From Deltaproteobacteria bacterium (GTDB lineage Bacteria > Myxococcota_A > Polyangia > Polyangiales > JADJMO01), in the NCBI GenBank assembly GCA_022843175.1, contig JALHOE010000019.1, positions 1-64,000 on the forward strand: DNA of 64,000 nt, written 5' to 3'. The notes beneath the pieces were generated by a model. That model saw only the letters and a program-made list of their open reading frames with translations. It was not told the DNA's origin and ran no database searches. Below are positions 12,039-22,780 of the stretch, one piece after another; within the stretch, counting starts at the first letter, position 1; every line of letters starts with the position of its first letter. The translations under genes were made by a program, and so were the position numbers.

Positions 12039-12926
12039 ATGGAACACTCTCGCGCCGTCCTCCGCTCCAGGGTTCCCTTCGACTTCCGCAAGAGCCTCTC
12101 GTTCCTGTGCTCGTTCCCGCCCACGCGCGGGGAGCAGCGGGTCGAGGGCGATCGATTTCGTAAGGCCTTCGCGCACGACGGCGCGACGATCGCGGCAACC
12201 GTGTCCGTCGGAGACGAGCCGTCGTCGCTCGCGTGCACCCTGTCGTCCGAGCGCGCGCTCTCCGCCGAGTCGCGCGCGCGCGCGGTCGAACAGGTCGCGT
12301 TTCAGCTCGGCCTCGACGACGACCTCGCCGGCTTCTACGCCGTCGCCCGCAACGACGCCGCGTTCGCGCCGCTCGTCGAGCGGCTGTTCGGGCAACGCCA
12401 CGTGAAGTTCTCGCCCTCGCCGTTCGAGGCGGCGGCGTGGTCGATCCTCGCGCAGCGACGGCCGATCCGGCAGGCGCGCGCCGTAAAGGATTCCATCGTC
12501 GAGCACTTTGGCGGAGCGCTCGATCTCGACGGAGAGCGCCTGCGCGCCTTCCCCGAGCCGGCCGCGATCGTCGACGCGGGAGCAGCGGGTCTCGTCGCCG
12601 CGCGGGTCGACCGCGAGCGCGCGCATGCCATCGTCCAGGCGGCGCACGCGTTCCGAGACGTCGATCGTCGGTTCCTCGTCGAGGGCGACTTCACCGAGGT
12701 CGAGCGTTGGCTGCGGGCGATCCCGCGCATCGGCGAGTGGTCGGCGGCGTTCGTGTTGTTCCGCGCGCTCGGACGAATGGCGCGCCTCGTCGACACCGGT
12801 CCCATCGCGAGGGCTGCGCGCGTGCTCTATGGCGTCGCCGACGATCGTGCGGCGCTCGCGCGCGGCGAGGCGTACGGCCAGTTTCGTGGGTATTGGGCCT
12901 ACTACCTGCGGGTCGGGGTCGGCTGA
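12039..12926 (+). CDS. DNA-3-methyladenine glycosylase II (AlkA-like)
   Basis: A 295-residue HhH-GPD superfamily base-excision repair glycosylase. The helix-hairpin-helix is visible at about 224-237 (LRAIPRIGEWSAAF), followed after a Leu/Arg-rich helix by the catalytic Asp at 252 (VDTGPIA). The N-terminal half (about 1-110) matches the beta-rich AlkA N domain, with the myxobacterial FPPTRGEQ motif at 26-33. It would remove alkylated bases such as 3-methyladenine in the cytosol. A purine-rich AAGGAG sits immediately before the ATG and is slightly too close, so the start could be a few codons off. The gene is single, with no ada or ogt partner nearby. Confidence 0.85.
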   Translation: MEHSRAVLRSRVPFDFRKSLSFLCSFPPTRGEQRVEGDRFRKAFAHDGATIAATVSVGDEPSSLACTLSSERALSAESRARAVEQVAFQLGLDDDLAGFYAVARNDAAFAPLVERLFGQRHVKFSPSPFEAAAWSILAQRRPIRQARAVKDSIVEHFGGALDLDGERLRAFPEPAAIVDAGAAGLVAARVDRERAHAIVQAAHAFRDVDRRFLVEGDFTEVERWLRAIPRIGEWSAAFVLFRALGRMARLVDTGPIARAARVLYGVADDRAALARGEAYGQFRGYWAYYLRVGVG

Positions 12927-15882: not shown

Positions 15883-16647
15883 TCACACGACATGCCGATG
15901 TGGCCGTGGTGGGGCCGCTTCGAGCGCGCGAAAGCCGTGTTTCTCGATGAGCTCGCGCGAGAAGCCGGGGAGGTGCGCGCGCCCCATCACCACGACGGCT
16001 TCGGCGTCGTGGTGGTCGCGGAACATGCGCGCCGTGCCGGCGGCCATGATCGTGTCGCGCGCGGTGAGGATCGACACAACGGGGTGGATCAGCCAACTGA
16101 AGCGGTAGCGACGCAGCATCAACGCCGGGATGATCGCGAACACGTGCAGCTCGAGCGAGAGCGCGAGCCAGGTGAGCCAGGGGAGCTGACGTCCCAGCGC
16201 GGTGAGCGCGAGCTGGGCGAAGAAGACGGTGAAGATCGCTGCGAGGTAGAACGAGCCGACGTGCAGCGCGACGGGGACCACCGGATCGCGCTCGATCTCG
16301 ACGGTGGTGCCGTGGGTGAGCGCCTTGGCCTCGGTGATCGTGCTGCCCTTGATGAGGCCGAGGGAGAGCGCGCGCAGGAGCAGGCGTGGGAGGTGGATGA
16401 GGATCCTCAGCGCGCGTCCGGCGAAGACTTTGTCCGCGGGGAACGTCTCGACCCCGCGAAGCGTGAAGCCGGCGACGATCTCTCTTCCCAGCGCAGCCGC
16501 GGGCCCGAGCTTCATGTGCGCCTCACCGAGGACGACCAGCAGCCGACCGTCGGGCGCTTCGAGGTAGCGGACCGCGTAGCTGAACGGCGTGTTCTCGGCC
16601 TCTTCGAGCGGGGTCAGAGCGCGCGCGCCTCGTCGTAACGCGCCCAC
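15883..16647 (-). CDS. TraB/PrgY-like membrane protein
   Basis: About 254 residues from a GTG at 16647. The region just inside the start (VVLGEAHMKLG) and the segment near the C terminus (VVVMGRAHLPGF, about 40 residues before the end) match the paired G-x-A-H motifs of the TraB/PrgY family, whose fold is related to erythromycin esterase and TIKI proteins. Between them lie amphipathic helices and at least two strong transmembrane segments. Function in bacteria is poorly defined; pheromone-shutdown and peptidase roles are described for relatives. The start is uncertain: GTG 16647 overlaps the upstream gene by 34 bases, while a CTG at 16617 would overlap by 4. Confidence 0.65.
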   Translation of the reverse strand: MGALRRGARALTPLEEAENTPFSYAVRYLEAPDGRLLVVLGEAHMKLGPAAALGREIVAGFTLRGVETFPADKVFAGRALRILIHLPRLLLRALSLGLIKGSTITEAKALTHGTTVEIERDPVVPVALHVGSFYLAAIFTVFFAQLALTALGRQLPWLTWLALSLELHVFAIIPALMLRRYRFSWLIHPVVSILTARDTIMAAGTARMFRDHHDAEAVVVMGRAHLPGFSRELIEKHGFRALEAAPPRPHRHVV

Positions 16648-18047
16648 TTCGGATCGGTGGGCCCCGGGCCGCGAAGGGTAACGCCGAGGATCAGCGTCTT
16701 TCGCCACTCGGGGAGCGCGGCCTCGAGCTCCTCGAGCAGCGCCGCGTGGAACTTGTAGTTGTGCACGTCACCAGTGGCGTGCTCGACGAGGATCGTCGGG
16801 TAGGCATCGGTCACCTGCTGCACGGTGCCGCCGCCGGCGAGGAACGCGGCGAGCAAACGCGCAGACTCGATGCGATTCCCAGAGAACGAACCGAACACCG
16901 CCGACAAGGTCGGCGCCGCGCCGGGCGTCGCCACGAGCGCCTCGAGTCGCTCGGGAAACTTCGCCGTCTTCGACGCGACGAACGCTTGAAACTCCGGTCG
17001 CCAGGCGGCCGCCTGAAGCAACACGAGCGCCTCGGTGTCGCGATCGGGCGCGAGCCCCTGCAAGTGGCGAAGGGCGTTCAACGCGTCGAGCTCGTGGACT
17101 CCGAACGAGGTCTCGCCCCAGCGAACGCTGACCTCGACGGCGACGATCGCGAGCGCGGTCCACACGGTGCGTCGGCTTTTGCCCGCGACCAGCGCGGCGA
17201 TCGTTGCGTCGACGCACTGCTTGGCGTCGCCGGTCCGAAACACCTCGAGGAGCGCCGGCACCGCGGACGGGTCGTCCTTGCCGTCACGGAAGGTCGAGGG
17301 CACTTCTCCGACGCGCATGAGGTTCGCGGCGAACGCGCCGATGCTGCTCCCCTTGCGCTTCGCGGCGATCGCGCGCGCCAGGCTCCGCACGACCCACGGC
17401 GCGCACGCCCAACCGAACGTGTCCATCGCGCGAACCGCATGGGCGGTCCAGATCGCGGTGTGTCCGAGCCAATCGTGATCGCGCGGCGCGTAGCGGGTGA
17501 GCGGGCCGATCACCGCCTTTCGCCCGCCGTGGGCGTAGAGCGCGGCGATCGCAGCGTCGGCGCCGGCTTCGTCGAAGCTGTCGAACGACGCGATCAGCTT
17601 CGCCTCCGCGGTGTCGGCCGACGGCACCTTCGCGAGCGGCGGGAGCGGGTCGCGGCCGACGAAGTCCATCACCGCGCCGTGCTGCATGTTCCACGCGTAC
17701 GCGAGCGGCACGAGCGCGAGCTCCTTGGACACGCGCTTCGACACCAGGTACGCGGCCTGCACCGCGAGCGCGCTGTGGAGCTCTTCGGCCACCACGGTGC
17801 GCGCGCCGACCGTGAGCGCGGCCGCATACAGCGTGTCGGTCGACGCGCCGGCGACCAGCCACTTCTTCAGCACCGGCAACGCATCGACGCGCTCGGCCAT
17901 CAGGCTGTCGGCGATCGCGTCGGACGCGCACGACGCCGGAACCACGTCCTCGGACGGCCCGGGCGCGTCCTCGCGAGCGCAGCCCACGAGCCACGATCCG
18001 GAGACACCCGCCACCGCCGCGAGCGTTTCGCGTCGAGTCCACCCCAT
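16614..18047 (-). CDS. Tat-type/lipoprotein of unknown function (paralogue of the 21338-22780 gene)
   Basis: A 477-residue protein. ATG 18047 gives an N terminus with TRRETLAAVAGVSGSWLVGC: a twin-arginine-like motif plus lipobox (VGC, Cys23). The rest is all alpha-helical in composition, with Ala/Leu-rich repeats and motifs such as LLQAAAWRPEF. It aligns by eye along most of its length with the broken gene at 21338-22780 (for example LLQAAAW against LVQAAAW, and a shared HxxDAxxAL segment), so the two are paralogues. I know similar Tat-signal proteins of about 450-500 residues in myxobacteria and planctomycetes, without assigned function. It overlaps the TraB-like gene downstream and is divergent from 18141. 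Confidence 0.78.
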   Translation of the reverse strand: MGWTRRETLAAVAGVSGSWLVGCAREDAPGPSEDVVPASCASDAIADSLMAERVDALPVLKKWLVAGASTDTLYAAALTVGARTVVAEELHSALAVQAAYLVSKRVSKELALVPLAYAWNMQHGAVMDFVGRDPLPPLAKVPSADTAEAKLIASFDSFDEAGADAAIAALYAHGGRKAVIGPLTRYAPRDHDWLGHTAIWTAHAVRAMDTFGWACAPWVVRSLARAIAAKRKGSSIGAFAANLMRVGEVPSTFRDGKDDPSAVPALLEVFRTGDAKQCVDATIAALVAGKSRRTVWTALAIVAVEVSVRWGETSFGVHELDALNALRHLQGLAPDRDTEALVLLQAAAWRPEFQAFVASKTAKFPERLEALVATPGAAPTLSAVFGSFSGNRIESARLLAAFLAGGGTVQQVTDAYPTILVEHATGDVHNYKFHAALLEELEAALPEWRKTLILGVTLRGPGPTDPKWARYDEARAL

Positions 18048-18486: not shown

Positions 18487-21261
18487 TCACTTCGGCAGCG
18501 TGCAGCTCATCTCGTAGAGGCTGCCGAGCTGCACGACGAGCGCGTGCGTCGGATCCGCGAGGGGGATCGTCACGCCGCGGCCGCCGAGGGTGCGCACGCA
18601 GGTCGTGCCGTCGTCCAGCGCGTCCATCGCGACACGATCGAGCGGCGGCGGGTAGAACACGCCGCTCAGCGCGTAGCTCGGGCGCGGCAATCGCAGCGGA
18701 ATGGTCGTACCGCTCGCGGACACGCACGCCGTCGTGGAGGGCTTGGCGAGAGCGTACCCACGCGGTGAGAACAGGCCATCGCGCAGCGTCCCGACGAAGA
18801 CGGTTGGATGGGTCGCGCTCGCGACCGACCACGTCGGGGTCGCGACGGGCAGCAGATCGAAGGTCGCCGACGAATCGTAGTCGGGCGCCTGGTAGAACAT
18901 GAAGCCACGCTCTTCTTGCGCGATCGACGTCCACAGGCGGAGGAGCCGGAGCTCCCAGGTCTTCCCGTCCTTGCTCTCGAAGACCTCCGCCGTTCCGTTC
19001 GCGCTCGGGAGTCGGGCGACGACCGACCACCCCGTGCCGGTGCGGAAGACGCGCCGCGCGATGTGATCGGAGACCGGCGGCGCGGTGAGCTTCTCGATCG
19101 CGCCACCGGCATCGCGAAGGATGTAGATGGGCGCGTCCCCCGGATCGGACTCCGGCCATGGATCCTCCGGCTTCGACGAGAGCTTCGAGGTGCGGAAGTA
19201 GCGCGGTGAGGTCGGTTGCACCGCCACGCCGTCGGCGAGCATGCCGACGATCCACGCGTGGCGAAGGTCTGCCTCCACGGCGTCGCCGTTGCGGATCCGG
19301 AACGTCCCGACCTCTCCGAGCTCGGCGACGTGCGGCTTCTTCTCGGTGTCGCGCAGCCACGCGACCGTCGCGCGGATCGGCCTCGTCTCCGGGCTCTTCG
19401 GCGTTTTCGGCGCGATGGTGTAGCGCACTGCGATCACGCCGCCGGGGAGCGCGTGAAACACCGTCTCCTGCTTGTCGCCCTGCGGCGGCAGGAGCGCGAT
19501 CGTCTCCAACTTTCCGTTGGTCGCGCGTCGGATCACGGAGCGCTTGTCGGCGAACAGCCGCAGCGGGCCGGCGGCGAGCGGGTCGAGCTCGCCGAGGATG
19601 TTCTGCGCGAGGGGCTTCTTTCCGACGGTGCACGCGATCGTCGTGACCGGCGGCGCGACCTCGTCCGGCCGGTTCGGCTCGGGCGGTGGCACGCTGAACG
19701 GCTCGCCGATGCGCTCCGGGAGATCCCACCCGATGCGCCACGCGCTGTCGGTCACGCAGCCCTCCGCGCCGCAGGCGAACGCGCCGAGCGCCGGCCCCGC
19801 GTCGTGCGCGACGCCGGTCGCATCGACCTCGAAGAGGACGCCGTGGTGGCGAAAGAGCACGTGCCCGCCGCCCGACGCGAAATCGTCGGCGCGGAGCTTC
19901 AGTGAGTGTTTTTGCACCTCGCCCTTGAGCGGCGCGCGGAGAACGATGAGCTCCTTGTGCCCGTTGAGCACCGCGACGATCGTGCCGTCATCGGCGACCG
20001 AAATCGCGGTGCGGTTCGGCACGATGTCGAGCTCGGCACGCACCGTCGGCTCGTATTTGTCGAGCGGAGAGGTGACGAGCTTCGCCTTGGGATACTCGAA
20101 CGCGAAGGCGACGAGCTGCTTTCCCTTCTCGTCGACGACCGCGCCCTGCAGGCGATCCTTCACCGGCTCGAAGGGCGCGTTGGCCGACTTGCGAAACTGA
20201 ATCGTGCCGAACTTCGGCTGATGCACGAGATAGCCGTTCGGCCCGGCGGCCCAGCTCTCGGGTCGAAAGTCCGTGTCGCGCGCGGCGAGCGCGGTGAACG
20301 TGACCCCGCCGTCGACGGTGAGCGCCTCGGTGAGCTTCGCGCCGCCCTCCATCCATCGGATGCAGGCGAGGGAGACCGTCTTTCCGTGCGCGGAAGCCAG
20401 CGTCGAGGCGCAGTCGTTGAAACCTGCGAGCGGCTTCCAAGCGCGGCGCGCACCGAACGCAGCGACCGACACGAAGTAGGCGCCCTTCCCGTCCTTCGCG
20501 AGCTGCGCAGTCGTGCCCCCTCCCACGGCACGGCTCACGATCGCGCCCGGCGGTCTCTCGTCGAGCCACAGCTCGTCGCTTCTCGGCGCACCGGCGTACG
20601 CCGTTCCGGCGTCGTCGATGCTCACGATCGAGGGAGGCGTCGCGGGGGGCGGCAGCGGTTTCCACGTCGCGCCATGATCGGTGGTGAGGGCGAGGGCCTC
20701 GGGGACCATCAGGAGCAAACCGCGTCCGTCGCGGGCGATCGCGACGTCGGCGGCGAGGGCGGGCATGCCCAACCGGGTCCACGACTTGCCACGGTCGGTC
20801 GAACGCAACGCGACGCCGTCGTTGGTGATGCCGACGATCGCAGCTTCGGTGGCGCTCGCGCGGGCAATGGGGTGTGGGCTCCGCACGATCTCGTACGGAT
20901 CGTCGAGCGGCTCGCGCGCGCGATAGATCGTGCCGTGTACGCCGACGAAGTCGACGCCCACGTCCGATCGCAGTGCGGCGACGAGATCCTCATCGAGGAG
21001 GTGCGCCGCGTGGGTGCGCTTCGATCCCTCGAGCAACCAGCGCTGTCCGCGATCGCCGGGCAACACCCGACGCCCGCCGCCCAGGTCGAGCGCGCGTCCG
21101 ACCGCCCACGAGGGCGCGTGCATCGGTGACCAACGCGCACCCACCGGCGGCGCGGGCGCCTTCGGTGTCGGCGGCAGGGGCGCCGGCGGGGTGGCCGGGA
21201 CGGGCGACGGCGTCGGTCCGCCGCATGACGCGAGCAACAGCAGGAGCGCGAAGCGTCTCAT
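18487..21261 (-). CDS. Large lipoprotein with Asp-box (BNR) beta-propeller repeats
   Basis: A 924-residue protein. ATG 21261 has a GGGAGGGGG ribosome-binding site and leads into a signal peptide with lipobox LASC (Cys13), followed by a Pro-rich linker of about 30 residues. At least four Asp-box motifs are visible: STDRGKSWTRL, TTDHGATWKPL, TVDGGVTFTAL and SKDGKTWELR. These occur in sialidase-type and Ycf48-like propellers. The length would allow two or more propellers. No sialidase catalytic Arg triad could be assigned. Inference: a surface-anchored binding or scaffold protein. It is divergent from the broken Tat-lipoprotein gene, 76 bases away. Confidence 0.8.
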   Translation of the reverse strand: MRRFALLLLLASCGGPTPSPVPATPPAPLPPTPKAPAPPVGARWSPMHAPSWAVGRALDLGGGRRVLPGDRGQRWLLEGSKRTHAAHLLDEDLVAALRSDVGVDFVGVHGTIYRAREPLDDPYEIVRSPHPIARASATEAAIVGITNDGVALRSTDRGKSWTRLGMPALAADVAIARDGRGLLLMVPEALALTTDHGATWKPLPPPATPPSIVSIDDAGTAYAGAPRSDELWLDERPPGAIVSRAVGGGTTAQLAKDGKGAYFVSVAAFGARRAWKPLAGFNDCASTLASAHGKTVSLACIRWMEGGAKLTEALTVDGGVTFTALAARDTDFRPESWAAGPNGYLVHQPKFGTIQFRKSANAPFEPVKDRLQGAVVDEKGKQLVAFAFEYPKAKLVTSPLDKYEPTVRAELDIVPNRTAISVADDGTIVAVLNGHKELIVLRAPLKGEVQKHSLKLRADDFASGGGHVLFRHHGVLFEVDATGVAHDAGPALGAFACGAEGCVTDSAWRIGWDLPERIGEPFSVPPPEPNRPDEVAPPVTTIACTVGKKPLAQNILGELDPLAAGPLRLFADKRSVIRRATNGKLETIALLPPQGDKQETVFHALPGGVIAVRYTIAPKTPKSPETRPIRATVAWLRDTEKKPHVAELGEVGTFRIRNGDAVEADLRHAWIVGMLADGVAVQPTSPRYFRTSKLSSKPEDPWPESDPGDAPIYILRDAGGAIEKLTAPPVSDHIARRVFRTGTGWSVVARLPSANGTAEVFESKDGKTWELRLLRLWTSIAQEERGFMFYQAPDYDSSATFDLLPVATPTWSVASATHPTVFVGTLRDGLFSPRGYALAKPSTTACVSASGTTIPLRLPRPSYALSGVFYPPPLDRVAMDALDDGTTCVRTLGGRGVTIPLADPTHALVVQLGSLYEMSCTLPK

Positions 21262-21337: not shown

Positions 21338-22780
21338 ATGGATCGGCGGCGCTTCCTGGGAACGATGGGCTCGATGGCCGCCGTCGCCTCGTGCGCGAAG
21401 GACGAACCCAACGACGCCGTGCCTGACGAGGTCGAGGTGCTCGCCGCGGAGCTGGAGGCCGCCGCGACCCGGAAAACGGCGCTCGACGGCGCGGCCCAGC
21501 GGCTCCGAAAGGGGCTCTCGCCGGACAAGGTGTTGCTCGCGACCTTCCTCGCGGGCGTGAGGACGCTGCGCCCCGAGCCCCTCGGCCAGAGTTACCACGC
21601 GGTGCTCTGGATCGAGTCGCTGCGTGCCACGGCGGCGAAGCTCGAGGGCGACGACCCGGCGATCGTCTCACTGGTGGCCGTCGCCTACTTCAAAGAGGTG
21701 CAGGCCGCGGAGACCGAGCCGGGGTAGGCGTTGAAGAAGGTCGACAAGGCCAGCACGCCGGCGAGCGAGGCCGCCGCCGCGCTGGCCACCGCGCTCACCC
21801 AACGCCAGCTCGCCGCCGCCGACGCGGCCGTCGTTGCGCTCCATCGCGCCGACCGGTCCAAAGACGTGCTCGAGGCGCTCATCCTCCACGGCAGTCGAGG
21901 GCACGCGGATCTCGGGCACGAGATGATCGCCATCGCCAAGTCGTGGCGTCTCCTCGAGCGCGGACAGCTCGCGCGCGCCGAGGACGCCCTGCGCGCGCTC
22001 GCGGAGGGACTCGTGCGGACCAAGCCCGATGCAAGCGAGCCGCTCTACCTCGAGAACCGAGGCAAGCTCGCGGGCGTGCGCCCCGATTGGGCCGCTGGTC
22101 GCGAGGATGACGCCGCGGTGGTCGAGCTGATCAAGGCGCTTCGTGTCGCGACGGCCGCGGAGGCGAGCGCCAAGGTCTTCGAGCTCCTCGGACGGGGCAT
22201 CGGGCCGCGATCGCTGTGGGACGCGGTCTTCGCGGCCGCCGCCGAACGCCTGGTGCGCTCGGTGAATGGCGGCGATCGCATCGTCGCGATCCACGCCGTG
22301 ACCGCGACCGATGCGATGCGCGAGTGTGCGAGCCTTGCACAGCAACCGACGACGCAGCTCTTGTGTCTGGTGCAGGCAGCGGCGTGGATTCCGCTGTTCC
22401 GCGAGGAGGCGACGCGCAGGCGAGGTCCCGTTCCGGAGGGCGGAGGCGAGATCGACGCCATCGTTCCCACGCCGTCGACGCTCGACCAGGTGTTCGCCGA
22501 AACGGATGCGCCGGCGAGGGTCCGTCGCATCGCCGGTTACCTCGCGAACGGCGGCCCCGTCACCGCGCTGTTTCAGCGAATGCGCCCGTTGATCCCGCAC
22601 GCGCCCGAGCAGCACTACCCGAAGCTCCTCGACTCGATCGAGCGACACGAGCCGCAGCTCGGTGCGCGCGTGCACCATGCGGTCGTCGCGGCCATCGGTC
22701 AGTACATGATGCTCGGCGCCGAGCGCGAGCCGCTCGGGTACATCGAGGCTGCGGGCGCCTGGACGCGTTCGCGCGCCTGA
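21338..22780 (+). pseudogene. Tat-type/lipoprotein gene interrupted by an in-frame TAG (paralogue of 16614-18047)
   Basis: ATG 21338 starts RRRFLGTMGSMAAVASC: twin arginines then a lipobox-like Cys (residue 19). After 129 codons the frame meets TAG at 21725-21727, then remains open in the same frame for 350 codons to 22780. Total length with one residue at the TAG would be 480, matching the 477-residue paralogue. Shared motifs occur on both sides of the stop (for example LATFLAGVR before; AAADAAVVAL and LVQAAAW after). Codon usage stays normal downstream. One G-to-A change from TGG (Trp) would create this stop; sequencing error, recent pseudogenisation and readthrough all remain possible. A TTG at 21731 is the only nearby restart. 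Confidence 0.8.

Follow-up and report, generated by a model that had tools for sequence, protein, structure and literature searches.

Within a 64-kb stretch of DNA (hereafter the window), which belongs to a 9.75 Mb draft genome of 470 contigs that is about 95% complete, the reading frame of a putatively exported protein is interrupted by a TAG codon. This locus raises the question whether the TAG (i) has inactivated a gene, (ii) is a wrong base in the assembled sequence, (iii) is a stop that is put to use in expression, or (iv) separates two genes.

Interrupted frame and its homologues

From the ATG at 21338 the frame extends over 129 codons to the TAG at 21725-21727 and, in the same frame, over another 350 codons to the TGA at 22778, which bears out the original prediction that the TAG splits one frame. 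When the TAG is read through, the chain has 480 residues as compared with 477 in an intact neighbouring protein (Table 1). Coding statistics were gene-like on both sides of the TAG, with a modest dip at about 22240-22460. The 129-codon part had a GC3 of 0.92 and a coding score of 0.39 per codon; for the 350-codon part, which had been predicted to keep normal codon use, the values were 0.86 and 0.30, and for the intact neighbour 0.90 and 0.35. All in-frame stops in the window were scanned, and nine of them were flanked on either side by sequence of high mean coding score; among these the stop at 21725 had the top combined score (0.45/0.37). Two further high-scoring stops, at 12924 and 22778, are gene boundaries; the one at 12924 was considered as a second broken gene and rejected, as it is the ordinary boundary of two ORFs (whose identities were assigned by inspection). 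Because the DNA of the window is 70% G+C, an open frame alone is weak evidence and it is homology that carries the case.

Table 1. Positions of the interrupted gene, its landmarks and its intact neighbour in the window.
Feature	Position	Strand	Remark
Interrupted gene	21338..22780	+	480 codons with TAG read through, plus TGA
Putative Tat-type signal with lipobox (MDRRRFLGTMGSMAAVASC)	21338..21394	+	by inspection; PF10518 in 6/31 relatives
His87 codon	21596..21598	+	invariant (31/31); sole conserved His before TAG
In-frame TAG, codon 130	21725..21727	+	Trp in 37/41 homologues
His194 codon	21917..21919	+	invariant (31/31); after TAG
His319 codon	22292..22294	+	invariant (31/31); after TAG
HxxK motif	22613..22624	+	His426 29/31, Lys429 26/31; after TAG
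Intact neighbour, same family and same predicted fold	16614..18047	-	477 residues

The interrupted protein and the neighbour are homologous over most of their length. The neighbour had been described as an intact paralogue of 477 residues, and its homology, integrity and length were corroborated, but the relationship is very remote (28% identity over 416 columns, E 3e-20 in a single comparison). A recent duplication of the neighbour was considered and found to be unsupported, since the phylogenetic tree joins the interrupted protein to a planctomycete clade (98/96) and not to the neighbour; both proteins form long branches in this tree, for which the tool warns of false joins. The region between the two family members (18487-21258, minus strand) encodes a large protein, putatively a lipoprotein, which gave a weak match to BNR/Asp-box. 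On another contig of the same genome (C4) a 52-residue remnant (L136:5133-5290) was found that is 67% identical to the intact neighbour, and the rest of this gene was not found within the 11 kb searched. This remnant of a neighbour-like copy indicates that copies of the family decay in this genome.

With the genome under study counted, the family is rare in its own class (10 of 317 genomes) and its own phylum (27 of 377 genomes), and it was absent from the four tested genomes of the same genus or family, as would be expected for a dispensable gene. In one planctomycete order, which was reached via a Planctomycetaceae record (L023), the family is common (120 of 170 genomes). Full-length homology extends across the TAG, and the homologues are mostly single uninterrupted frames: no stop was recorded inside any match listed in the planctomycete-order search, and 32 of the 35 rows of the phylum search were likewise without one, the remaining three being the interrupted gene itself and two weak matches (in genomes G157 and G326). 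In G157 two adjoining weak family fragments, one with an in-frame TGA, lie at 15320-15687 of contig C132, and these may represent another decayed copy. Neither Pfam nor NCBIfam holds a model of its own for the family, and searches against both named nothing credible.

Predicted fold, conserved residues and putative export

The function of the family was approached through structure prediction. AlphaFold returned confident, all-helical models for the read-through protein (pLDDT 90.6) and the intact neighbour (pLDDT 86.9). In VIA-align the read-through protein matched BTG13 (7y3x; Z 19.2, rmsd 4.3, 336 aligned residues) and the neighbour matched 7y3w, titled questin oxidase (Z 18.4, rmsd 4.1, 331 aligned residues). 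For both proteins the matches extended to 8yxs (Z 18.3 for the read-through protein and 17.7 for the neighbour) and to the hydroquinone dioxygenase PaD (8z4r, Z 16.7 and 16.0, respectively; 8z4q, Z 16.2 for the neighbour), and the next unrelated entry scored Z 8.1 for the read-through protein and 11.8 for the neighbour. Foldseek alone gave weak matches (best E 0.092 and probability 0.97 for the read-through protein, 0.19 and 0.89 for the neighbour). The window proteins thus have a fold in common with BTG13, the questin oxidase of Cercospora sp. JNU001 (7y3w, 7y3x, 7y3y), with the Aspergillus protein 8yxs and, at about 9-10% identity, with PaD. Matches to Herpes_UL51, SutA, Lipase B and catechol dioxygenase were sub-threshold and were dismissed as chance.

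At the level of sequence profiles, PF14027 matched neither the window proteins (E <= 1) nor any of 31 family members (E <= 0.1). A comparison of the family profile with two PF14027-like bacterial proteins gave an E-value of 0.0041 at a probability of 8%, and at that same probability it lined up the LHAVT motif of the family with LHGVT. As to similarity to PF14027 itself, locus L143 was over the cut-off and locus L145 under it; the motifs LHG(V/I)T and H(S/T)IK are conserved in each of them. The protein at L145:1432-2547 (minus strand), a bacterial questin-oxidase-like protein, has an N-terminal Tat-like signal with a Cys (MASLGRREFMFLSAGALVAAGC), like the window family.

The four histidines conserved family-wide and the lysine of the HxxK motif are all present in the interrupted protein. 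Conserved His and Lys residues of this kind are to be expected in a non-heme metal site rich in His, and in this the family resembles BTG13, whose site we take to be an iron bound by four His and a modified Lys. The title of 8yxs, non-heme iron dioxygenase, is the source of the iron in this comparison. Unlike BTG13 and 8yxs, the window proteins are bacterial, share only about 7-11% identity with these structures, carry an apparent Tat signal and have no match to PF14027. The conserved His residues and the HxxK Lys probably hold a metal. A further point of comparison is GedK, a dioxygenase that is described as cleaving the ring of questin hydroquinone and as cofactor-free (PMC9890505). Based on the fold match to BTG13, the conserved His and Lys residues and the comparison with GedK, we think that the family comprises exported metal-dependent oxygenases that would act like BTG13 and are not filed under PF14027. 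The chemistry may be an O2-dependent oxidation of a hydroquinone-like aromatic compound.

The original prediction had termed the interrupted gene product a Tat-type lipoprotein. Inspection of its N-terminus (MDRRRFLG...VASC) agrees with this, as do PF10518 matches at E <= 0.1 among its relatives; these HMM matches are to the relatives and not to the interrupted protein itself. Judged by these sequence features, the product of the interrupted gene is probably exported, of the Tat type and lipid-anchored.

Origin and reading of the stop

To identify the residue that the TAG replaces, 41 homologues were aligned with the interrupted protein, in which the stop was represented by X. The TAG column contained Trp in 37 homologues, a gap in two (one being the window neighbour), Pro in one and Thr in one. 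Trp was found in all 30 planctomycete-order sequences and in 7 of the 11 others, so that 30 of the 37 Trp rows stem from one order. A change of TGG to TAG, as originally proposed, requires a single base, and the prevalence of Trp in this column makes it the likeliest origin of the stop. A sketch that weighed TGG against the remaining codons from which TAG is reached in a single step, with transition weighting assumed, gave a TGG origin of 0.74-0.97 for Trp priors of 0.15-0.7. The interrupted protein is, however, a divergent family member whose branch in the tree is long (3.5 changes per column), which renders the ancestral residue less certain than 37 of 41 implies. Eight other columns contain Trp in half or more of the relatives; the interrupted protein has Trp at two of these and has lost it at six, and TGG is for this reason considered probable rather than certain.

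The part of the gene behind the stop is well preserved. Of the columns conserved to at least 90% among the relatives, five lie before the TAG and 11 after it; the interrupted protein retains all five and nine of these, respectively, and the intact neighbour four and seven. For columns 80% conserved the figures were 9 of 16 and 32 of 43 in the interrupted protein and 6 of 16 and 28 of 43 in the neighbour. By this comparison, decay beyond the TAG was not apparent, and a second lesion was not seen in the gene. An undecayed 3' part fits a recent mutation, a sequencing or assembly error and a gene in use equally.

We consider it probable that the locus is a recently inactivated copy of a gene for an exported, all-helical enzyme of the BTG13/questin-oxidase fold in which codon 130 was turned into a stop by one nonsense mutation, most likely from TGG to TAG. 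Translation would then end at residue 129 and the product would keep the signal and His87 only. With three of the four conserved His residues and the Lys of the HxxK motif located after the stop, this product could not assemble the proposed metal site, and no working enzyme would be expected from the interrupted copy. The good condition of the remaining gene would make the nonsense change recent.

The main rival explanation, to which we assign a distinctly smaller probability, is that the TAG is absent from the living genome taken as a whole and stems from an erroneous consensus base or from a minority strain. The genome is a 470-contig draft, decay after the stop is lacking, and the 64-kb window has no other site that stands out in this way; an erroneous base or mixed strains would give the same assembled sequence. 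On the other hand, the window contains no N, and nonsense changes that arise naturally in accessory genes are, in general, more frequent than consensus errors at a single base.

It is very improbable that the stop is functional, either by programmed amber readthrough or by a stop followed by a restart at the TTG at 21731 with two products (21725-21733). If it were, a gene otherwise under selection would yield two products, one short and exported and the other longer. The TTG one codon past the TAG, the GGGG just before it and the well-preserved downstream part would suit this explanation. It is opposed by the complement of translation genes: none of 64 tRNA matches in the about 95% complete genome (detected by Infernal, with anticodons determined by ARAGORN) had a CTA anticodon, three degenerate tRNAs on contig C135 without a clear ARAGORN anticodon having been judged by eye; no PylS passed the cut-off (25 bits against 178); and RF1 is present over its cut-off. 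These findings make readthrough unlikely. Together with the use of TAG as an ordinary terminator in the window (11 of 42 crude ORFs), they led us to reject a change of the genetic code or amber suppression. In addition, the listed homologues other than the interrupted gene and the two weak matches mentioned above contain no internal stop, and a product restarted at the TTG would be devoid of the export signal and His87. Contig C135 carries an array of 25 tRNA genes (ARAGORN; L118:10158-19992), plus further degenerate Infernal matches; among these tRNA genes lie an HNH endonuclease ORF and a gene for a Ro60-type TROVE/vWA protein (L118:17743-19515).

Two separate genes, encoding a short exported protein and a cytosolic protein of 349 residues, could be read from the possible TTG start in the downstream frame, but this explanation, the least probable of all, is disfavoured by the homologues, whose frames are single and align through the position of the TAG.

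Significance of the interrupted gene and its family

As a probable nonsense mutant the interrupted gene resembles known bacterial nonsense pseudogenes in its one in-frame stop, its otherwise intact frame and its uninterrupted relatives. It differs from typical examples in that it appears very fresh and without a second lesion. As a broken gene, it would be a new instance of an ordinary type of gene loss. The more interesting by-product of the analysis is the enzyme family itself, which is without a name in Pfam and NCBIfam and has matches in 120 of 170 genomes of one planctomycete order. With its predicted questin-oxidase fold and its four His residues and one Lys, this family is a candidate for a group of bacterial aromatic oxygenases that are exported and depend on a metal.
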